Shown: positions 42,228 through 53,242 of the stretch, piece by piece
Layout: every line of letters begins with the position of its first letter
Numbering within the stretch: the stretch's first letter is position 1
Assembly (NCBI GenBank): GCA_958295725.1
Contig: OY282368.1
Location: 248,001-312,000, forward strand
Direction of reading: 5' to 3'
DNA from: an uncultured Alphaproteobacteria bacterium
Lineage (GTDB): Bacteria; Pseudomonadota; Alphaproteobacteria; UBA2966
Length of the DNA: 64,000 nucleotides
Notes under the pieces: generated by a model
Told to the model about the DNA's origin: nothing
Seen by the model: the letters and a program-made list of their open reading frames with translations, nothing else
The model's database searches: none
Made by a program: the position numbers and the translations under genes

Positions 42228-44264
42228 ATGGCCCACCTGATCGGCGTCGACGTCGGCGGCACCAATACCGACCTGGTCTTCGTGGATACCGAAGCGGGCG
42301 AACTGCGTCTCGCCAAGGTGCCGTCGACGCCGACCAACCAAGCGGACGGCCTGATGCGCGGGATCGACATCCTGGGCGTCCCGCTGAACGAGGTGGATCT
42401 GCTGATCCACGGCACGACCGTGGCCACCAACGCCGTGATCGAACGCAAGGGTGCCCGCTGCGGCCTGATCACGACCAGGGGCTTCCGAGACGTCCTCGAG
42501 ATGGGGCGTCGCGACCGCCGCCAGACGTATGGGCTGTTCGGCGATTTCCAGCCCCTGATCGACCGCGAGGACCGCCGCGAGGTGGACGAACGGGTCAGCG
42601 CCGAGGGAGACATCCTGACCGCCCTCGATCCCGACGAGGCGCGCGCCGTGGCCGAGGCGCTCGCCGAGGCCGGCTGCGAGGTCCTGGTCATCTCGTTCCT
42701 GCACGCCTACGCCAACCCGCACAACGAGGAGGCCGCCGGCGCGGCGGCGCGTGAGGTCTGGCCCAACGACTTCGTCGTCACGAGTTCCGAGGTCCTGCCC
42801 GTGGTCCGCGAGTTCGAACGGACCAGCACTGCCGTCGTCAGCGGCTACGTCCAGCCGCTCATCTCGCGATACCTCACGCGCTTGGGAGAACGGCTGAACG
42901 AGGGCGGCTACGACAAGGAATTCCTCGTCGTCCAGCTGAACGGCGGCGTGATGACGGCGTCCGTGGCGGCGCGGCTGGCCTCCAACACCATCCTTTCCGG
43001 ACCCGCCGCCGGCGTCACCGCGGCGGCGGCCATCGCCGCCGACATGGACATCGGCGAAGTGGTGTGCTGCGACATGGGCGGCACCAGCTTCGACGCCTGC
43101 ATCATTCGTGGCGGCAAGCCCCTGATCGCCGGTGAGAAATACCTGGACTTCCGTATCCCGCTGAGCCTGCCGATGCTCGACGTCGACGCCATCGGGGCGG
43201 GTGGTGGCAGCATCGCGCGCCTCGATTCTTCCGGCATCGTCGAGGTCGGCCCGGAGAGTGCGGGGGCCGACCCGGGACCGGCCTGCGCCGGGCGCGGCGG
43301 AACCGAGCCGACGGTGACCGACGCGAGCCTGACGCTCGGATACCTCGACCCCGGCGAGGTCATCGGGCGGGACGAGGGGATCGGCATGGACGTCGAGATG
43401 GCGCGCGCGGCGATCCGGGAAAAGATCGCCGGGCCGCTCGGTCTGGCGGTGGAGGATGCCGCGGAGGCGATCCTCACGGTCACCGGCGCCAGGATGGCAG
43501 GCCATGTGCGGGGGAATCTCCTCGGCAAGGGTCTCGACCCGCGCGAGTTCTCGGTGATCGCCTTCGGCGGCGCCGGTCCGGTTCACGTGAACCGGATCAC
43601 CCGCGAGGTGGGTTTCCGCTCGGCCATCGTCCCCGCCTATCCGGGACTGACATCGGCGCTCGGGTGCGTGCTCGGCCGCCTGCGGCACGACTACCTGCGC
43701 ACCGTGAACGTCGCCCTCGATACGCTCGATCCCGCCGTCCTCGGCGCGATCTTCGACGAGGAGACGCGGAAGGGACGCGCGTTGCTCGACGCGGAAGGCG
43801 TGCCCGCGGACCGGACCGCGGCGACCCTCGGGGCGGACATGTGCTACGCCGGTCAGGCCTATGTCATCCAGGTGACCTTCCCCGACGACGAGGCGCTGTC
43901 GCGGGACTCGATCCGGACGGCCTTCGAGGCCGCCTATCGCGAACGGTTCGCCAACCTGCTGCCGCACGCGAGCATAAGGATCGTCAGCACCCGGGTGACG
44001 GTCGCCGACACCGGGGGCGTTCCCTCGGTCGCCGACTTCGTCTCCGCGCCCACGGATGCGAGGCCGACCGTCGGTACCGCGCGAACCTACTTCGGCGGTG
44101 CCTGGATCGATGCGGCCAAGTACCGCCGGGCGGAACTCCCAGCGGGGTTCCGCCTCGACGGACCGGCATTGCTCACGCAGCCCGATTCCACCACACTGAT
44201 CGAACCGGGCTTCTCCGCCACAGTGCACCCGACGGGGAACCTGTTGATCGAAGCGAACACCTGA
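42228..44264 (+). CDS. hyuA: Hydantoinase/oxoprolinase subunit A (HyuA)
   Basis: 678 residues. Actin-like ATPase signatures: N-terminal GVDVGGTNTDLVF, HGTTVATNAVIERKG, and SGPAAGVTAAAA followed by DMGGTSFD and GAGGGSIA. With HyuB it forms the ATP-dependent amide-ring-opening enzymes (N-methylhydantoinase, 5-oxoprolinase) or acetone-carboxylase-like enzymes. HyuB follows 14 bases downstream and an FAD/GcvT demethylase next, favouring an N-methylated substrate, by inference. Confidence 0.9.
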   Translation: MAHLIGVDVGGTNTDLVFVDTEAGELRLAKVPSTPTNQADGLMRGIDILGVPLNEVDLLIHGTTVATNAVIERKGARCGLITTRGFRDVLEMGRRDRRQTYGLFGDFQPLIDREDRREVDERVSAEGDILTALDPDEARAVAEALAEAGCEVLVISFLHAYANPHNEEAAGAAAREVWPNDFVVTSSEVLPVVREFERTSTAVVSGYVQPLISRYLTRLGERLNEGGYDKEFLVVQLNGGVMTASVAARLASNTILSGPAAGVTAAAAIAADMDIGEVVCCDMGGTSFDACIIRGGKPLIAGEKYLDFRIPLSLPMLDVDAIGAGGGSIARLDSSGIVEVGPESAGADPGPACAGRGGTEPTVTDASLTLGYLDPGEVIGRDEGIGMDVEMARAAIREKIAGPLGLAVEDAAEAILTVTGARMAGHVRGNLLGKGLDPREFSVIAFGGAGPVHVNRITREVGFRSAIVPAYPGLTSALGCVLGRLRHDYLRTVNVALDTLDPAVLGAIFDEETRKGRALLDAEGVPADRTAATLGADMCYAGQAYVIQVTFPDDEALSRDSIRTAFEAAYRERFANLLPHASIRIVSTRVTVADTGGVPSVADFVSAPTDARPTVGTARTYFGGAWIDAAKYRRAELPAGFRLDGPALLTQPDSTTLIEPGFSATVHPTGNLLIEANT

Positions 44265-44278
44265 GACGGGATCAGGAC

Positions 44279-45940
44279 ATGCGGAACATCGATCCGACGA
44301 CCCTCGCCGTCGTCCGCGGCGCACTCGAGCAGATCGCGGACGAGATGGACACCGTACTGTCCACCTCGGCCTTCTCGCCCATCATCTCCGACGCCTGGGA
44401 CCGCGCCAGCGGCATCTTCCACCCCAAAACGGGGGAGGTGATCGTCCAGGGCCGGACGGGCCTGCCCATCTTCATCATCGTCATGCAACACACCGTGCAG
44501 CATGTGCTGAAGGACCATCCGCCGGAGACCATGAAACCCGGCGACGTGTTCATCGTCAACGACCCCTATCGGGGCGGCACCCACACCATGGACTTGAAGT
44601 TCGTCCGTCCCTTCTTCCGCGACGGCGAGCTCAAGGCGCTGCTGGCGAACACCGGCCACTGGCCCGACGTCGGCAGCATGACCCCCGGCGGCTTCACGAC
44701 GACGGCCACGGACATCTACCAGGAAGGGTTCCGCATACCGCCCGTCAGGATCTACGACGGCGGTGAGTTCAATCAGATCCTCGCCGACGTGATGTTCCAC
44801 AACATGCGCGTGGCGGACGACCGTCGCGGCGACATGGCGGCGCAGCTCAACTCGCTGGAGATGGGCGACAGGCGCCTGCGCGAGTTCTTCGACCGTTTCG
44901 ACGAGGACACCGTCTTCGCCTGCGTCGACGAATTGAAAGACCGGTCGGAGAGGCTGATGCGCGAATGCATCGCCGACATCCCCGACGGCGCGTACCGGTT
45001 CGTCGACCACATGGATTCGGACGGACTCGACGAAGGCCGGTTGACGATCGACGTCAAGGTGATCGTCGAGGGCACGAACATCACCTTCGACCTCTCCGGC
45101 AGCTCGCCCGAATGCCGGGGTCCGTTCAACAGCCCCTACAGCAACACCGTGACCGGCACGATGATCGCCGTGAAGCACGTGTTCTGGGACGTCCCGATCA
45201 ACTCCGGGTGCTTCGAGCCCTTCGACTGGATCATCCCCGAGGGGTCGATGCTCAATCCGCGGGAACCGCGACCGGTGTCGGGTACGACCACCGAGTCGTG
45301 CAACATGATCGTCAGCACGACGCTCGGCGCGCTGGCCCAGGCCGTTCCGGGGCGGGTGCCGGCGGGCTACTTCGCGACCGGCTCGAACGTCTGCCTGGGT
45401 GGCACGCACCCGGACCACGGGGAGTATGCGGCCCTGCTGCTGATCGGCGGCGGGATGGGCGGTAACCCGGACGGCGACGGCCTCAACAACGGCTGTCCGG
45501 CGATCGGCGCCTCGCGCAACGGCTCGATCGAGATCGTCGAGCAGTCGGTCCCCTTCCTCTACACGAAGTACGGACTGCGCGAGGGCTCGGCCGGAGACGG
45601 CGAGTTTCGCGGCGGGCTCGGCGTCGAAGCGGCCCTGCAACTCCACGAGGGCGAGGGCTACCTCACGTTCCTCGGCGACCGGGGCACGATCGGCCCCTAC
45701 GGCCTCGAGGGTGGCGATCCGGGCGCCACTGCCGATCACGAGTTCCATACCGGCGGCGAATACTGGCGGGCGCCGCACAAGACCAAGATCGACCGCGTGT
45801 ACCTGAAGCCCGGCGACGGCATGGTCGTGCGCACCCCGGGAGGCGGCGGTTACGGCGACCCGGCCAGGCGTTCGCCGGAGGCCCGCGTCGCCGACAAGCG
45901 CCGCGGCTATCTCGGCCCGGCGGCCCAGGCCGCCGAATAG
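44279..45940 (+). CDS. hyuB: Hydantoinase/oxoprolinase subunit B (HyuB)
   Basis: 553 residues from the ATG at 44279. Family marks: N-terminal DPTTLAVVRGALEQIADEM, the NDPYRGGTHTMD metal-site region, and C-terminal GSAGDGEFRGGLGVE and PGGGGYGDPARR. It is the partner of the preceding HyuA (14-base gap) and is followed 21 bases later by the FAD/GcvT fusion, so the three genes form one operon. Confidence 0.9.
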   Translation: MRNIDPTTLAVVRGALEQIADEMDTVLSTSAFSPIISDAWDRASGIFHPKTGEVIVQGRTGLPIFIIVMQHTVQHVLKDHPPETMKPGDVFIVNDPYRGGTHTMDLKFVRPFFRDGELKALLANTGHWPDVGSMTPGGFTTTATDIYQEGFRIPPVRIYDGGEFNQILADVMFHNMRVADDRRGDMAAQLNSLEMGDRRLREFFDRFDEDTVFACVDELKDRSERLMRECIADIPDGAYRFVDHMDSDGLDEGRLTIDVKVIVEGTNITFDLSGSSPECRGPFNSPYSNTVTGTMIAVKHVFWDVPINSGCFEPFDWIIPEGSMLNPREPRPVSGTTTESCNMIVSTTLGALAQAVPGRVPAGYFATGSNVCLGGTHPDHGEYAALLLIGGGMGGNPDGDGLNNGCPAIGASRNGSIEIVEQSVPFLYTKYGLREGSAGDGEFRGGLGVEAALQLHEGEGYLTFLGDRGTIGPYGLEGGDPGATADHEFHTGGEYWRAPHKTKIDRVYLKPGDGMVVRTPGGGGYGDPARRSPEARVADKRRGYLGPAAQAAE

Positions 45941-45961: not shown

Positions 45962-48415
45962 ATGGCCCTGCCCGACCAGGCCCGCGCCGTGGTCATCGGC
46001 GGCGGCATCGCCGGTTGCTCGGTCGCCTGTCGCCTCGCCGAGCTCGGCTGGACGGACGTCGTCCTCGTCGAGCGTAACACCGTGTCTTCCGGCACCACCT
46101 GGCACGCCGCGGGCGACGTCAACATCATCCGCGGCTCGCTTGAGGCGATGCGGATCGTGCGCGACAGCGTCGAGCTCTATACGTCCGCGTCCGCGGAGAC
46201 CGGCCAGGACATCGGGTTCAAGCACTGCGGGCTGATCTCGCTGGCCCAGAGCGAGGACCGTATGACGGACTACCGCCGCCAGATCGCGCTGTTCCGGTCC
46301 ATCGGCGGCGAGGCCGAGTTGGTGCCGCCGGAACGGGTCGCCCGGCTCAACCCGTTCGTGCGCAACGACGACATCCTCGGCGCGCTTCACACGCCCGAGG
46401 CCTACCGGGTCAACCCGGCGGACGTCGCCCAGGCCGTGTCGAAGGCGGCGCGGCGCCGCGGCGTCGCGATCTTCGAGAACACCCCCGTCACCGGCATCGA
46501 GACACGAAGGGCGGGACAGGTGCGCGAGATCGCCGCCGTCGAGACCGACCGGGGCCGGATCGCCTGCGAGACCGTGGTGCTGGCCGGCGGTGCGTGGTCC
46601 CGCGACATCGGGCGGCTGGCCGGCGTCTCCGTCCCGCTGCACGCGGTCGAGCACAGCTACCTGATCACCAACGCGATCGAAGGCGTGGACGACCGGCTGC
46701 CGATCTCGCGCGACCCGGACGCCTACATCTATTCGCGCGAGGAGGTCGGCGGTTTCCTCATCGGGTTCTTCGAGCCGGGCGCCAAGCCGCTCTCCAGGGC
46801 GCAACTGCCGGACGACTTCTCGTTCGCCAGCCTGCCGGAAGACTGGGACCATCTCGAGCCCCACATCGCCAACGCCATCAACCGCTACCCGGCGCTGGAG
46901 ACCGCCGGCATCAAGCTCCTGTTCACCGGCCCCGAGAGCTTCACGCCCGACGGCGCGTTCCTCCTGGGCCCGGCACCCGACGTGTGCGGGCTGTTCGCCC
47001 TCGCCGGCATGAACTCGTCGGGCATCGCGATGTCGGGCGGCGCGGCCAAGGTCCTGGCGGGGTGGATCGACGGAGGCGAGCCCACGATCGATATCACGGC
47101 GTTCGACATGCGTCGTTTCCCGCGCCTGCTGGGCAACACCGCTTGGCTCGCGGAACGCGCCAGGGAACTGCCGAGCCGGCTGTTCGAGGTCAACCTGCCC
47201 CGACGCGAGCACGGGCGCGGCCGGAACCTGCGCCTGTCGCCCCTGCACGGCCGGTTCGGGATGGCGGGCGCGCGCTTCGGACAGGTCGCCGGCTGGGAGC
47301 GCCCCAACTGGTTCGCGCCCGGCGACCGGGACATTGTCGACACGCCGACCTACGGACGGCCCGGCTGGTTCGACGCCGTGGCGGAAGAGCACGGGGCGGC
47401 GCGCGGGGCCGTGGCGCTGTTCGAACGCTCGCCCATGGCCAAGATCCTGGTCGAAGGCCCGGACGCCGAGGACCTGCTGCAAACGGTATGCGCCAACGAC
47501 TTGTCGGGTCCCGACGGCCGGTTGATCTACACCGCCATGCTCAACGCGAACGGCGGGTTCGAGTCCGATCTCACGGTCACGCGCCTCGGCGGCGACCGGT
47601 TCCTCGTCGTCACCGGTGCTAACGAGGGGGTCCGGGACCACGACCGCATCGCGCGGCACGCCGGCGACCGGAGGGTCTCGATCGTCGATGTCACGAGCGC
47701 CTTCGCGGGTCTCGCCCTGACCGGACCCAACGCCCGCAAGCTGTTGTCGCGCGTCACGGAGAACGACGTATCGGACGAGGCGTTCCCCCACCTCACCGCG
47801 CGAGAGATATGGGTCGGCCCCGGACACGCGTGGGCGCTGCGTGTTTCCTACGCCGGCGAGCTCGGCTGGGAGCTGTTCATCCCGACCGAAAGCGCCGTCG
47901 CGGTCCACGACGCCGTCGTCGCGGCGGGCGAAGGCCTCGGCCTCGCCCACGCGGGCGCGTACGCCTCCAACACCTTGCGCATGGAGAAGGGCTTCCGCGC
48001 CTGGGGCCATGACCTCACGCCGGCGGAAACGCCGCTCGAAGCCGGACTCGGGTTCGCCGTGCGTCTCGACAAGCGGGTTCCGTTCATCGGGCGGGACGCC
48101 CTGTTGCGCCAGCGCGACGACGGCATCCGCAAGCGCATGGTCGTGTTCACGATGGACGAGACGGAGCTCTGGCCCGTCGTCCGCGAGCCGGTTCGGCGGG
48201 ACGGCGAAGTCGTGGGGCACCTGACGTCGTCGGGCTACGGCTACTCCGTCGGCAAGATGGTCTGCATGGGCTTCGCGCGCAACGACGGCGATCCGGTCGG
48301 CGAGGACTTCATCGATTCGGGCGCCTGGGACATCGAGATCGCGGGCGAGCGCATTCCCGCCGAGGCGAGCCTCGCCGCCCCCTACGACCCCGGCGGCGCG
48401 CGCATGAGGGGATAG
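45962..48415 (+). CDS. FAD-dependent oxidoreductase/GcvT fusion (dimethylglycine or sarcosine dehydrogenase type)
   Basis: 817 residues. N-terminal FAD domain with GGGIAG at 13-18 and TTWHAAG, where H48 matches the histidine that carries covalent FAD in dimethylglycine dehydrogenase. From about residue 430 a GcvT-like tetrahydrofolate-binding domain follows (SPLHGRFGMAGARFG, FERSPMAKILVEGPDAEDLL, SYAGELGWELFIP, ending LDKRVPFIGRDALL). Such enzymes oxidise an N-methyl group and pass the one-carbon unit to tetrahydrofolate. Third gene of the hyuAB operon. Its 3' end overlaps the convergent gene by 34 bases. Confidence 0.88.
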   Translation: MALPDQARAVVIGGGIAGCSVACRLAELGWTDVVLVERNTVSSGTTWHAAGDVNIIRGSLEAMRIVRDSVELYTSASAETGQDIGFKHCGLISLAQSEDRMTDYRRQIALFRSIGGEAELVPPERVARLNPFVRNDDILGALHTPEAYRVNPADVAQAVSKAARRRGVAIFENTPVTGIETRRAGQVREIAAVETDRGRIACETVVLAGGAWSRDIGRLAGVSVPLHAVEHSYLITNAIEGVDDRLPISRDPDAYIYSREEVGGFLIGFFEPGAKPLSRAQLPDDFSFASLPEDWDHLEPHIANAINRYPALETAGIKLLFTGPESFTPDGAFLLGPAPDVCGLFALAGMNSSGIAMSGGAAKVLAGWIDGGEPTIDITAFDMRRFPRLLGNTAWLAERARELPSRLFEVNLPRREHGRGRNLRLSPLHGRFGMAGARFGQVAGWERPNWFAPGDRDIVDTPTYGRPGWFDAVAEEHGAARGAVALFERSPMAKILVEGPDAEDLLQTVCANDLSGPDGRLIYTAMLNANGGFESDLTVTRLGGDRFLVVTGANEGVRDHDRIARHAGDRRVSIVDVTSAFAGLALTGPNARKLLSRVTENDVSDEAFPHLTAREIWVGPGHAWALRVSYAGELGWELFIPTESAVAVHDAVVAAGEGLGLAHAGAYASNTLRMEKGFRAWGHDLTPAETPLEAGLGFAVRLDKRVPFIGRDALLRQRDDGIRKRMVVFTMDETELWPVVREPVRRDGEVVGHLTSSGYGYSVGKMVCMGFARNDGDPVGEDFIDSGAWDIEIAGERIPAEASLAAPYDPGGARMRG

Positions 48416-50175
48416 ACGGAGCCGCGCCGCAACCGGCGCTCCCGTTCCGTCGCCGTCTCGTTCACCGCCCTCCCGTCGCCCGTCAGCGCCACGCCGTAAT
48501 CGCGCAGCGCGCTCTCGCGGCCGACGAAACCGCAGCGGACATCGCGGAGCACGCGCGAGGGATCGCGCTCCAGCGGGTCGCCCCAGCCGCCGCCCCCGGA
48601 AGATCGCGCGACGAGTCGCGCGGGACCGTAGACACGGTTGCCGTAGGGCGGCGCGACTTCCGGCTCGCCGCCGGCCGGCACGATCTCCATCTCCGCCTCG
48701 CGGCCCGTACCGCCGCCGTTGACGCCGTACCCCGACGGATAGACGAGCCCCTCGCCGCGGAAGGAGTGGACCGCCTCTTCCTCGATGGCGACCTCGTAGT
48801 GGATGCCGGTGCCGCCCCGAAACTCTCCGGGACCGCCCGAATCGCGGCGATACTCCTGGCGCAGGAAACGCATGGGATAGCGCTGCTCGCAGGACTCGGC
48901 GTTCTGAAGGAGAAGCCCGCCGAGGGTGATGACGTGGCCGAGCTGGTCGAAACCGTCCCGGCCCCGGACCGCGCCGGCGCCCGGCATCGTGCACCAGTGA
49001 ATCATGACGTAGGGGTCGTCCGAGTCGACACGGCCCGCCGTCACCCCGTGCACGCCCTTCCCCCAGCCGGCGCAGGCGTTGGCCGGATCCGCCTGGGCCA
49101 ACGCCTTCCAGGTGACGTGGACGATCTCGTGGGCCACCGACTGCGTGCTCTGGGTCATGGGCGCTGGCGGTCGCGGATTGACGACAGTGCCGAGCGGCGC
49201 GATCAGGGTCGTCGCGCGGAAGGCGCCGCCGTTCCGGGGCAACGCCGGGTCGAGAAACGAGAACAGGCCCAGGTAAACGCAGGCGTGGGTGGTGACGAGA
49301 GACGCGTTCTTGAAACCGCGCACCTGTGGATGGGTTCCCGTGAAGTCCACCGTCAAGTGGTCGCCGGCGATGGTCAGGGCCACGCGGATGGGGATCTCGA
49401 CATCCTCGAAACAGTCGTTGTGGCTGAGCTCCTCCGCCTCGTAGCGACCGTCGGGAAGCTCGCGGACGGCGGCCCGGAACATGCGCTCGCCGTGGTCCAG
49501 GAGCGCGGCGATGGAGGCCTTTCCCGTCTCGACGCCGAACTCCTCGATCAAGGCGGAAACGCGCTCCGCCCCAATCCGGGTCGAGCCCAGCATGGCCCGC
49601 AGATCGCCGCCGAGCAGGCGCGGCGTGCGGGTATTAAGCAGGAGGAACTCCCACAGATCGCCCAGCAGCTCGCCCCGGCGCACCAGCTTGAGCGGCGGCA
49701 GCCGGACGCCCTCATGCCAGATCTCGGTCGCCTCCGCGAAGTACGAGCCGGGAGCGCCGCCCCCGATGTCCGATTGGTGCGCCCGGATGCAACCGAAGGC
49801 CACCAGCTCTCCCGCGACGAAGACGGGCCGGACGACCACCCAGTCGGGCAGGTGGTTGCCACCCGCCTCGTAGGGGTCGCTGGCGAGGAAGACGTCTCCG
49901 TCCTCGATCTCGTCCGGGAACGCGTCGAGGACGGCCTCGACCACGAAGCCGCCGCAGCCGGCCTGGATCGGGATGCCGTCCGACTGCGAGACCGGTTCGG
50001 CCCTCGAGTCCGTCAGGAAGCAGGCGAAATCGTGGCACTCGCCGAAGAACGGGCTCCACGCCGTGCGCATCATGACCCGGCCCATGTGCCGGCCGATGTC
50101 GTCGAACCGGTTCTGGATCAGCGCCAGGGCGACCGGATCGGGCGTCTCCGTCCCCGAGGCGGCGGGATCCGTCAT
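48382..50175 (-). CDS. Second HyuB-type hydantoinase B subunit, without HyuA
   Basis: 597 residues from the ATG at 50175, which overlaps the upstream stop (ATGA, 50172-50175). Marks: DPVALALIQNRFDDIGRHM, SDPYEAGGNHLPDW, SGGPGEFRGGTGIHYE and SSGGGGWGDPLERD. Clearly related to, but diverged from, the hyuB at 44.3 kb. No second hyuA is nearby; it may share the hyuA at 42.2 kb or work with an unlinked partner. Coupling to a molybdenum hydroxylase subunit is unusual. Confidence 0.87.
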   Translation of the reverse strand: MTDPAASGTETPDPVALALIQNRFDDIGRHMGRVMMRTAWSPFFGECHDFACFLTDSRAEPVSQSDGIPIQAGCGGFVVEAVLDAFPDEIEDGDVFLASDPYEAGGNHLPDWVVVRPVFVAGELVAFGCIRAHQSDIGGGAPGSYFAEATEIWHEGVRLPPLKLVRRGELLGDLWEFLLLNTRTPRLLGGDLRAMLGSTRIGAERVSALIEEFGVETGKASIAALLDHGERMFRAAVRELPDGRYEAEELSHNDCFEDVEIPIRVALTIAGDHLTVDFTGTHPQVRGFKNASLVTTHACVYLGLFSFLDPALPRNGGAFRATTLIAPLGTVVNPRPPAPMTQSTQSVAHEIVHVTWKALAQADPANACAGWGKGVHGVTAGRVDSDDPYVMIHWCTMPGAGAVRGRDGFDQLGHVITLGGLLLQNAESCEQRYPMRFLRQEYRRDSGGPGEFRGGTGIHYEVAIEEEAVHSFRGEGLVYPSGYGVNGGGTGREAEMEIVPAGGEPEVAPPYGNRVYGPARLVARSSGGGGWGDPLERDPSRVLRDVRCGFVGRESALRDYGVALTGDGRAVNETATERERRLRRGSVYPLMRAPPGS

Positions 50176-52496
50176 GCCTCGGCGTTCCGAAGGGCCCGCC
50201 ACACGCGCTGCGGCGTCGCCGGACAGTCGAGCCGCCGCGCGCCGCGCGCCGACAGGGCGTCGATCGCCGCGTTCACGATCGCCGGAGGAGCGCCGATGGC
50301 GCCGGCCTCCCCACAGCCCTTGACCCCGAGCGGGTTGCTCTCCGTCGGGATCTCGTTGAACGAGATGGCGAGGTCGCACATGTCGTCGGCCCTGGGCAGC
50401 GCGTAGTCCATGAACGAGCCGGTCACCGGCTGCCCCGTCTCGCGGTCATAGGCCATGTCCTCGAGCAGAGCCTGGCCCGCGCCCTGGGCCACGCCGCCCT
50501 GAACCATGCCTCGGACGATCGTCGGATTGACGATGGTCCCGAAGTCGTCGACGGCCGTGTAGCGCACCACCGAAACCACGCCGGTCTCGGGATCGATCTC
50601 GACCTCGGCCACGTGACAGCCGTTGGGCCAGGCGGAGGCGCGGCGCCGGTAGCGCTCGTGCGTGTCGAGGTCCTCGTCGAGATCCTCGGGACGGCGCCCC
50701 GGATCGCGGGCGATGGCGGCCGCCTCGAAGAGGCCGAGCGCCCGGTCGGTCCCGGCGACGATGAAGCGTCCGTCCGCGAACTCGACGTCCGCGACGGCCG
50801 CCTCGAGCACGTGGGCGGCGATCGTCCGGCCTTTCTCGATCGCGCGGTCGGCGGCGGCGCGCAGGGCCGATCCCCCCATCTCGGTCGACCGCGAGCCGCC
50901 ATGCCCGCCGCCGATCGCGATCCGGTCCGTGTCTCCCTGGTCGAAGCCGATATGGTCGAGAGGCACGCCGAGCCGGTCGGAAACGATCTGGCGCAGCGTC
51001 GTCTGGAGGCCTTGGCCGTTGTCGAAGGTGCCGAGCAGGAGCGTAACGGTATCGTCTTCCGAGAACCGGATATCCGCGCCCTCCTCCGCCGGCCCCAGCG
51101 TGTCGTCGATGTAACAGCCGATACCGATGCCGCGAAACATGCCGCGTGCCTCGGAATCGGCCCGGCGCGCCTCGAACCCCGCGTAGTCGGCCTCCGCCAG
51201 GGCGCCCTCCAGGGCGGCCGGGAAGTCGCCCGAATCGAACGTGAAGCCGAAGGGGGTCGTGTACGGCAGGGCAGTCGCCGGGACGAGATTGCGGCGGCGC
51301 AACTCCGCCGGATCGATCCCTATGTCGTCCGCCGCGGCGTCGAGCAGCCGCTCGACGAGATAGATCGCCTCGGAGCGCCCGACGCCGCGATACGAGCCCG
51401 TCGGCGTCTTGTTGGTGAAGACGGTCTTGACCTCGAGGTGCGCGGCCGGGATGTCGTAGACACCCGAGGCCGCCGAAGCGTTCGCCTTGGTCGGCAGCAT
51501 GGGCGTCGAGCCGGCGACGTAGGCCCCGTGCGTGGCGATCGTCCGAACGCGGAGCCCGAGGATGCGTCCGTCCGCGTCGAGCGCCATCCGGGCCTCGCTC
51601 ACGTGGTCGCGGGCCTGATCGTCGCTCACGAAGGACTCGCCGCGGCCGCCCGTCCACTTGACGGGCCGACCGAGCCGCCTCGCCGCCCACAGGACCAGCG
51701 CGTACTCGGGATAGGCGTAGTTCTTCATGCCGAAACCGGCGCCGACGTCGGGCGCCACCACCCGCAGATCGGCCTCGGCGACGTGAAGCACCTGTTCGGC
51801 GAGTTGCTTGCGCAGGTTGTGGACGTTGGCGCAGGTGACATGCAGCGTATACCGCCCCGTGGCAGGATCGAACTCGCCCATCGCCGCGCGGCCTTCCATG
51901 GAGGCGACGGCGAGGCGGTTGTTGACCAGCCCCGCGATCTCCGTCACGCGCGCCGCGGCGGCGAACGCCGCCTCGGTGGCCGCGGCGTCGCCGGCTTCCC
52001 AATCGACACAGACGTTCCCCGGCGCCTCGTCCCAGAGCCGGGGAGCGTCCGCGTCCATGGCCCGGGCCGTATCGGTGACGGCCGGCAAGGGCGCGTAGTC
52101 GACTCGCACGAGGTCCGCCGCGTCCCGCGCCCGGTCTTCCGTCTCGGCGACGACCAAGGCCACCGGATCGCCGACGTGACGCACCCGGTCGCGGACGAGC
52201 GGCCAGCGCGGGGGCACGAAACACGTCCGTCCGTCGCGGCCCTCGATCGTCACGGCGCACGGGATCGGGCCGACGCCATCGGCGGCGAGGTCGGCATGGG
52301 TGAACACCGCCAGGACGCCGGGCGTCCTCGCCGCTTCCGCGCGGTCGATCCCCAGCACGTCGGCGTGCGCGCGCGGCGAGCGGACGAGCACGGCCGTCGC
52401 CTCGCCCGCGAGGCGGATATCGTCGACGTAGCGGCCGCGCCCGGTCAGAAACCGTTCGTCCTCGACCCGCCGCACGGGTTCGCCGATCCGCGCCAT
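50172..52496 (-). CDS. Molybdenum hydroxylase (xanthine dehydrogenase family) large subunit, orphan
   Basis: 774 residues; ATG at 52496 with a strong GGGGAGGGGAACGG upstream. N-terminal a/b-hammerhead (IGEPVRRVEDERFLTGRGRYVDD), molybdopterin-binding GAGFGMKNY and GGHGGSRSTEMGG, and the catalytic glutamate in VKGCGEAGAIGAPPA. The active-site loop reads SYRGVGRSE, not the AYxCSFR of true CO dehydrogenase, so it is a form-II-like hydroxylase. The usual FAD (medium) and 2Fe-2S (small) subunit genes are not present here. Confidence 0.88.
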   Translation of the reverse strand: MARIGEPVRRVEDERFLTGRGRYVDDIRLAGEATAVLVRSPRAHADVLGIDRAEAARTPGVLAVFTHADLAADGVGPIPCAVTIEGRDGRTCFVPPRWPLVRDRVRHVGDPVALVVAETEDRARDAADLVRVDYAPLPAVTDTARAMDADAPRLWDEAPGNVCVDWEAGDAAATEAAFAAAARVTEIAGLVNNRLAVASMEGRAAMGEFDPATGRYTLHVTCANVHNLRKQLAEQVLHVAEADLRVVAPDVGAGFGMKNYAYPEYALVLWAARRLGRPVKWTGGRGESFVSDDQARDHVSEARMALDADGRILGLRVRTIATHGAYVAGSTPMLPTKANASAASGVYDIPAAHLEVKTVFTNKTPTGSYRGVGRSEAIYLVERLLDAAADDIGIDPAELRRRNLVPATALPYTTPFGFTFDSGDFPAALEGALAEADYAGFEARRADSEARGMFRGIGIGCYIDDTLGPAEEGADIRFSEDDTVTLLLGTFDNGQGLQTTLRQIVSDRLGVPLDHIGFDQGDTDRIAIGGGHGGSRSTEMGGSALRAAADRAIEKGRTIAAHVLEAAVADVEFADGRFIVAGTDRALGLFEAAAIARDPGRRPEDLDEDLDTHERYRRRASAWPNGCHVAEVEIDPETGVVSVVRYTAVDDFGTIVNPTIVRGMVQGGVAQGAGQALLEDMAYDRETGQPVTGSFMDYALPRADDMCDLAISFNEIPTESNPLGVKGCGEAGAIGAPPAIVNAAIDALSARGARRLDCPATPQRVWRALRNAEA

Positions 52497-52661: not shown

Positions 52662-52958
52662 TTACGCGGCATCCGCTGGTCGCACGCGCTTGGCAATCTC
52701 GGTTCCGCGCTCCCATTCGATCCGTGCGATGTCGTACTGGCTCTGGAGACCGATCCAAAACGGTGCGCCGTTGCCAAAATAGAGGCCGAGACGCACCGCC
52801 GTGTCGGCGGTGATCGAACGGCGGCCATTCAGAATGTCCGTCACGCGGCCCGACGGAACGCCGAGGTCGAGCGCCAGCCGGTTGGCACTCAGGCCCCTCG
52901 CTTCGAGTTCGCGCTTCAGCAGCCGGCCAGGGTGTGAGATCGGAAGCATGGCGTTCAT
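52662..52958 (-). CDS. higA: HigA-family antitoxin
   Basis: 98 residues. Helix-turn-helix antitoxin of the VapI/HigA type: ISHPGRLLKRELEARGLSANRLA, RVTDILNGRRSITADTAVRLGLYFG, then FWIGLQSQYDI. The ATG at 52958 overlaps the higB stop (ATGA); an internal ATG at 52949 is better spaced from a GGGATG sequence. It would bind HigB and repress its own promoter. Composition is less GC-rich than neighbours. Confidence 0.9.
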   Translation of the reverse strand: MNAMLPISHPGRLLKRELEARGLSANRLALDLGVPSGRVTDILNGRRSITADTAVRLGLYFGNGAPFWIGLQSQYDIARIEWERGTEIAKRVRPADAA

Positions 52959-53242
52959 CCCCTGTGGTAATCGACGATCTCGACGTGGTGGGCGTCACCC
53001 GCTCGAAACTCGAAGCAAATCCGCCAAGGCCCGTTCACCGTCATCGCCCATTGACTTGCGCGAGTCCCTTTGAGCCTGTGCAACCCGACGCTCTTGAGCG
53101 GGCTCAGGTCACGGAGTGTATCGGCAGCGTTGAGCGCCAGCAGCAAATCGATAGCGGCAGAGAAGTCCAAGCCACGAAACCGGTTCGGCGTTTCACCTTC
53201 CCAGACTTTTCGGCTGGCCGCATTGCGCCACGAGCGGATCAC
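52955..53242 (-). CDS. higB: HigB-family toxin (RelE/ParE-like ribosome-dependent mRNase)
   Basis: 95 residues from a GTG at 53242. Characteristic starts and ends: MIRSWRNAASRKVWEGE, LRDLSPLKSVGLHRLKG, QWAMTVNGPWRICFEF, VEIVDYHRG. Toxin-first order with antitoxin overlapping by 4 bases is the standard higBA arrangement. The insertion-sequence-end repeat lies about 40 bases upstream and may supply promoter sequence (TTGTAT at the -35 position). Confidence 0.9.
   Translation of the reverse strand: MIRSWRNAASRKVWEGETPNRFRGLDFSAAIDLLLALNAADTLRDLSPLKSVGLHRLKGTRASQWAMTVNGPWRICFEFRAGDAHHVEIVDYHRG

Follow-up and report, generated by a model that had tools for sequence, protein, structure and literature searches.

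In the available portions of two sources on cox genes, AYxCSFR is given as the motif of form I carbon monoxide dehydrogenase (CODH) and AYRGAGR as that of form II, and the role of form II cox genes is described as unclear or unresolved (PMC13203968, PMC13240472). The latter, a survey of form I, ascribes lone CoxL genes to incomplete genome recovery in the part at hand (PMC13240472), and an equally partial text on Poribacteria describes expression of coxM and coxS without a CO-oxidising large subunit, explained there by annotation as xanthine dehydrogenase (PMC8941161). In caprolactamase, according to the accessible text, CapA is the phosphorylating subunit, and CapB opens the ring and has the metal ligands Asp41, His99, Asp102, and His124 (PMC8453981). 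The pyridine pathway of nicotine degradation on pAO1 brings together the molybdenum (Mo) hydroxylase Kdh and a gamma-N-methylaminobutyrate oxidase in one cluster, according to the excerpted source (PMC10494377). As far as that excerpt allows comparison, the locus examined here likewise holds genes for a Mo hydroxylase and an N-methylamino acid oxidase-type enzyme together. Unlike the large subunit described below, Kdh of pAO1 has all three subunits, and to our knowledge the ring is not opened by HyuAB in the nicotine pathway. In the degradation of N-methylpyrrolidone (nmpABCDEF), an N-methyl lactam is reportedly opened by a HyuAB-type enzyme before an oxidase acts; we know of no Mo hydroxylase in that operon. 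A search of the open-access literature found nothing on iron-sulfur (S) and FAD (M) subunits shared with a lone CoxL, or on a CoxL-Hyu cassette.

Our analysis concerns a 64,000-nucleotide stretch (the window) of an uncultured alphaproteobacterium (UBA2966; assembly GCA_958295725.1), in which five genes form a convergent block:

42228..44264, plus strand: hyuA, ATP-binding subunit, with DVGGT, DMGGT, and GADPGP motifs
44279..45940, plus strand: hyuB1, beta-type subunit, partner of the adjoining HyuA by tree
45962..48415, plus strand: dimethylglycine-dehydrogenase-like protein (FAD and GcvT folate domains), 817 aa, convergent with hyuB2
48382..50175, minus strand: hyuB2, ATP-dependent lactamase/hydantoinase beta-type subunit, 597 aa, ATGA-coupled to coxL, metal ligands D49, H108, D111, and H133
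50172..52496, minus strand: coxL, orphan form-II-like Mo hydroxylase large subunit, 774 aa, SYRGVGR loop, catalytic Glu in GCGEAG

The coxL ORF is intact and encodes the Pfam domains Ald_Xan_dh_C, MoCoBD_1, and MoCoBD_2. Its product has the makeup of a xanthine oxidase-type large subunit, with a hammerhead, two Moco-binding domains, and the GFGxK, GQG, and catalytic Glu motifs of Mo hydroxylase large subunits. The listed hyuB2 ORF starts at 50379, and the ATG at 50175 is the likely coding start because its ATGA overlaps the coxL stop. The original prediction was thus right to call the CoxL-like subunit complete (774 aa, three Pfam domains, catalytic residues intact), to describe coxL and hyuB as translationally coupled by ATGA, and to find no FAD or iron-sulfur subunit nearby, the nearest lying ~0.54 Mb away by whole-genome family searches. 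That coxL and hyuB2 might be pseudogenes was rejected, as their motifs are intact and synteny is kept despite divergence. Immediately upstream of coxL is a pair encoding an HTH_3 protein and a RelE/HigB-like toxin (52662-53242, minus strand); a promoter and terminator scan of the sequence upstream of coxL gave no candidate.

HyuB2 matches PF02538 over 519 of 519 profile positions, and most of the protein can be aligned to CapB (6yra_B) and to N-methylhydantoinase (7hk5). Aligned to 6yra_B, the CapB ligands Asp41/His99/Asp102/His124 correspond to D49/H108/D111/H133 of HyuB2, and D, H, D, and H occupy these positions in all 27 HyuB rows compared. The score of HyuB2 against the NCBIfam caprolactamase model is 323 bits (cut-off 1000). 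HyuB2 differs from CapAB and N-methylhydantoinase in having no same-strand HyuA beside it and in being coupled to a Mo hydroxylase. Since CapA phosphorylates and CapB opens the ring, in the portion of the source at hand (PMC8453981), HyuB2 is expected to need a HyuA. The nearest is encoded ~4 kb off on the opposite strand; it carries the two phosphate motifs along with the adenosine motif, and by tree is paired with HyuB1. HyuB2 clusters with HyuB from loci carrying a different HyuA class and the window HyuA with partners of HyuB1, which suggests that a HyuA once belonging to HyuB2 has probably been lost, its role now falling to the window HyuA or to one encoded elsewhere. Its closest paralogue in the same genome (61% identity, at 2025 kb, L022) has a HyuA adjoining.

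Hyu genes are common in this organism, with 20 HyuB genes in 3.67 Mb by family search and 14 near-full HyuA matches plus one 60-position fragment. One HyuA is followed by two HyuB at three places (L013, L015, L021), which could be a precedent for two HyuB sharing a single HyuA. Within C1:1358-1385 kb of G000 (L019, L054, L020), hyuA-hyuB occurs twice, together with a CoxL-M-S set and a 1219-aa M-S-L fusion protein. The dimethylglycine-dehydrogenase-like protein of the window resembles dimethylglycine dehydrogenase/oxidase (4p9s, 1pj5) along its whole length, with FAD and GcvT folate domains, and would be an N-demethylation enzyme; it differs from those systems in that its gene sits with HyuAB and CoxL genes. 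The 3' ends of this gene and of hyuB2 overlap by 34 bp. In G118, too, a dimethylglycine-dehydrogenase-like gene (L231, 13794-16271) and an orphan CoxL lie ~4.6 kb apart.

The block has the same convergent layout in all three genomes of the genus that were examined. In the other two (G014, loci L029/L130; G013, loci L030/L131), identities are 85-89% for hyuA, 78-92% for hyuB1, 82-84% for the dimethylglycine-dehydrogenase-like gene, 80-90% for hyuB2, and 72-84% for coxL. None of 15 flanking window proteins tested has an orthologue in the G013 and G014 stretches compared (weak Gfo-type matches appear in L030 only), which extend 3-10 kb beyond coxL and just 1-2 kb beyond hyuA. G013 carries a second hyuB1 and additional CoxL copies in a row. 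An order-level search found HyuB2-type matches in 5 of 15 genomes, an 81-100% orthologue being confined to the three members of the genus. Class searches with HyuB2 and with CoxL (385 genomes each) gave no adjacent pair outside the genus among the matches listed, a weak negative because few top candidates were scored per genome (the best 3 or best 2) and thresholds were strict. The coupled pair that the original prediction proposed to seek in other genomes is therefore present in both other members of the genus, with none listed outside it. Relatives carrying a three-subunit hydroxylase and no HyuB, named in that prediction as speaking against the pairing, were absent among the direct orthologues (only two are known), though at greater distance there are form-II three-subunit relatives that lack HyuB.

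CoxL is associated with Hyu genes in other families as well. In family f115, two of five genomes searched, from two genera, have coxL-hyuA-hyuB with ATGA between coxL and hyuA, in the order MarR-coxL-hyuA-hyuB (G229, L129; G393, L160). A beta-keto acid cleavage gene is near both loci (on the opposite strand in L129); L129 additionally has a PLP enzyme nearby, and L160 a Rieske oxygenase. CoxL loci were inspected in these two genomes and in G127 and G318, with G395 left out; those of G127 and G318, which have related CoxL, showed no Hyu. The f115 CoxL stands alone and falls by tree on a branch other than that of the window CoxL, and the f115 HyuA and HyuB are sisters of the window HyuA/HyuB1 and of one further pair in the source genome; the f115 coupling is a second one, independent of that in the window. 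In family f82, M-S-L-HyuA-HyuB occur in a row in G377 (L191), and S-L-HyuA-HyuB occupy a whole short contig in G094 (L190). A path from heterocycle to lactam to amino acid to keto acid would fit the f115 and f82 genes. Elsewhere in G377 (L206), at the end of a contig, M and S come after HyuA-HyuB, another Mo hydroxylase set beside Hyu. Eight plasmid regions, all opened for CoxL matches, had orphan CoxL genes as well as SLM operons, and a CoxL-HyuB pair in none.

These observations bear on whether CoxL and HyuB2 belong to separate pathways or are relics, their overlap being an operon accident kept by descent, a reading that we judge unlikely. Adjacency of CoxL and Hyu alone is weak evidence, since Hyu genes are so common, and the pair is known from only three genomes of one genus. 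Outside the genus, moreover, HyuB is adjoined by HyuA in 17 of the 18 HyuB2-type loci fetched (L147 shows none), and CoxL is present in just one, L143, where it lies ~3 kb away and belongs to another CoxL branch. Hyu genes occur within 3.5 kb of CoxL in 6 of 42 orphan and 4 of 34 three-subunit rows, and because this count could not reject chance adjacency, the case for a link rests on synteny and operons. Against an accident, the block has been kept while its neighbors changed and while CoxL diverged to as low as 72% identity and HyuB2 to 80%, the catalytic residues are intact, and an independent CoxL-HyuA-HyuB coupling occurs in f115. A chance rearrangement likewise appears unlikely from gene order, because the block is kept in all three genus genomes with changed neighbors and because coxL-hyuA-hyuB is ATGA-coupled in f115. 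The originally predicted module of ring oxidation and ring opening gains from the pairing conserved in the genus, from CoxL-HyuAB coupling in f115 and f82, and from the metal ligands kept in HyuB2; the missing FAD and iron-sulfur subunits proved not to be peculiar to the locus, being usual in a large class of CoxL.

The window CoxL resembles form II CODH/cox SLM Mo hydroxylases in its phylogenetic group, catalytic Glu, and conserved columns, and differs from them in standing alone, with a SYRGVGR loop and no S, M, or maturation genes beside it; neither a three-subunit layout (S and M beside L) nor the SLM operon order of form II CODH was found at coxL. Whole-genome family searches of the source genome identified 12 large-subunit (MoCoBD_1), 6 M (FAD_binding_5), and 6 S (Fer2_2) genes, and by position every FAD and iron-sulfur gene is the neighbor of a CoxL gene other than that of the window, six such CoxL genes in all. 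Those closest to the window are at C1:843-845 kb, compared with C1:298-300 kb for the window CoxL. Six of the 12 large subunits thus stand alone: the window CoxL and those at C1:185129, C1:235696, C1:778329, C1:1252672, and C2:59916. The genome has a single form-II cox S-L-M locus, where form-II-type S and M (S placed by tree) flank another L at C1:925.8-928.9 kb. An assembly artefact or missing contig was rejected as the cause, as the source genome comprises 3 contigs and orphans also occur in one-contig genomes (G195, G359, and G389; L124, L127, and L128). In Azospirillum thermophilum, an annotated plasmid also carries an orphan CoxL, flanked by a LysR gene and an EAL-domain gene. One nearly identical pair of orphan CoxL (end branches <0.01) lies on contigs of 3.5 Mb (L014, 6853-9186) and 93 kb (L028, 7446-9779).

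In a CoxL tree of 79 rows, 71, including the window CoxL, make up a supported group of form-II-like sequences, in which 25 of the 26 three-subunit large subunits, together with L171, form one branch with 100% SH-aLRT, a support from a quick search without bootstraps on a tree with long branches. Among the remaining 45 form-II-like rows, 41 are alone (context judged within 3.5 kb), with the catalytic residues preserved, 3 border the end of a contig or stretch, and L174_3557 has neighboring S and M genes. The tree leaves out sequences with <600 matched residues or <550 bits (for example L037, L186, L188, L194, and partial genes), duplicate loci, and loci fetched after tree sampling. In L171, on a Pseudohalocynthiibacter plasmid, CoxL is accompanied by CoxG, with S and M ~7 kb off on the opposite strand, an intermediate arrangement. 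Twenty further loci (7 from relatives' matches and 13 from G013/G014, several near contig ends) had S or M in the fetched stretch for 0 of 23 CoxL ORFs, one of which is a gene already counted and one of which (L242) scores lower. On the evidence of tree and gene context, lacking adjacent S and M characterizes a whole class of form-II-like large subunits and is no oddity of the window locus.

A mirror image of this pattern is seen in cox loci that have S, M, and maturation genes and no L, which occur in three genomes (G043, G173, and G359). The G043 locus (L164) reads CoxG-S-M-AAA ATPase-CoxE-XdhC/CoxI-XdhC-MobA-like, with no L found on its 33.75 kb contig, and the whole genome has 4 MoCoBD_1 (L) genes and one Fer2_2 gene, the S of L164. 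The G173 locus (L166) is arranged as in G043, without L in a 32 kb stretch, and that of G359 (L193) comprises S-M-AAA-CoxE-XdhC, with no L over the 10 kb fetched, a complete set being present elsewhere in that genome. Of 19 further S loci, three have S-M without L: L211 (G270), L224 (G311), and L225 (G388); a twentieth stretch (L229), a guessed place, contained no S and is not among the 19. In L204 (G377), S and M are 4.4 kb apart with other ORFs between them, and for L210 an M was not reported.

Large subunits outnumber S genes in each of 20 genomes counted (214 L versus 124 S in total), a ratio biased because 19 of these were chosen for a strong CoxL match or kinship. A form-II-like S (E<=1e-58) is present in 181 of 385 class genomes and in 24 of 25 genomes with an orphan CoxL (Fisher p ~6e-8, ignoring kinship), an association that partly reflects descent, as orphan L and SLM share ancestry. 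The exception, G286 (89% complete), has an orphan match and no form-II-like S at this threshold. The 25 derive from 29 genomes with a CoxL match at E<=1e-250, after four were set aside because the match was the L of an SLM operon (G047, G085, G175, and G272); each has a stand-alone CoxL in the opened locus, that of G323 near a contig end, and one G323 S match under the family cut-off was left uncounted. Since most genomes also hold other S-M sets, the partner of an orphan CoxL need not be form II.

An orphan CoxL might instead act without S and M, using another electron carrier or catalyzing a non-redox reaction, which we consider improbable. The clean separation of the orphan class from the SLM branch and the location of the substrate site in the large subunit alone would be compatible with such a role, as would tandems of three orphan CoxL without S or M in L113 and L118. 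Conservation argues the other way, with 40 orphan rows retaining a mean of 96% of 54 columns invariant in three-subunit enzymes, as do the presence of a form-II-like S in nearly all orphan-bearing genomes and the existence of S-M loci without L, where in G043 there is no other S in the genome. Orphan rows preserve 134 of the 268 SLM-conserved columns at a frequency of at least 90% and another 36 at <30%; several of those 36 surround the GFG, GQG, and GSR motifs. The two genomes with the CoxL tandems also have an S-M locus lacking L, and in L113 a DUF1800 gene adjoins the tandem. That the window CoxL is itself a CODH is very improbable and was rejected on motif, for although its best solved-structure match is the CoxL 8uem and it falls in the form-II-like group, it lacks the form I AYxCSFR motif, its SYRGVGR loop (shared by its group, most stand-alone form-II-like rows having AYRGAGR or a near form) departs even from the form II AYRGAGR, its second-best structure match is 6-hydroxypseudooxynicotine dehydrogenase (7dqx), and the available parts of three sources call CO oxidation by form II unresolved or unlikely (PMC13203968, PMC13240472, PMC6794299).

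The stand-alone class and the mirror-image cox loci without L together suggest sharing of subunits in trans. We therefore favor, as somewhat the more probable account, that coxL and hyuB2 each encode a subunit that handles substrate, the generic partners coming from genes elsewhere, combining use of S and M in trans, heterocycle hydroxylation, and ring opening by HyuAB. CoxL would obtain S, M, and maturation factors from the single form-II cox S-L-M locus at C1:925.8-928.9 kb, on which the other stand-alone large subunits of the genome may also draw. It could then oxidize the carbon next to the ring nitrogen of a (probably N-methylated) heterocycle to give a lactam, which HyuA/HyuB would open in an ATP-dependent reaction, and the dimethylglycine-dehydrogenase-like enzyme would remove the N-methyl group from the resulting N-methyl amino acid. 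We infer the physical assembly in trans, the substrate class, the reaction order, and the HyuA partner of HyuB2 from the gene patterns described above.

The larger finding, as read from gene content and trees, is the stand-alone state across the form-II-like class, mirrored by cox loci without L. The chances are about even that Alphaproteobacteria possess a plug-in system in which one form-II S-M/maturation locus (in some cases without its own L) serves many interchangeable CoxL, each setting one substrate; the window's CoxL and its equally partnerless HyuB would then constitute a two-gene cassette for ring oxidation and ring opening. If so, lone CoxL genes in the form-II-like class would be real enzymes and not gaps in genome recovery, and if form-II S-M does serve many large subunits, the question of what these systems oxidize would shift from one substrate to many.
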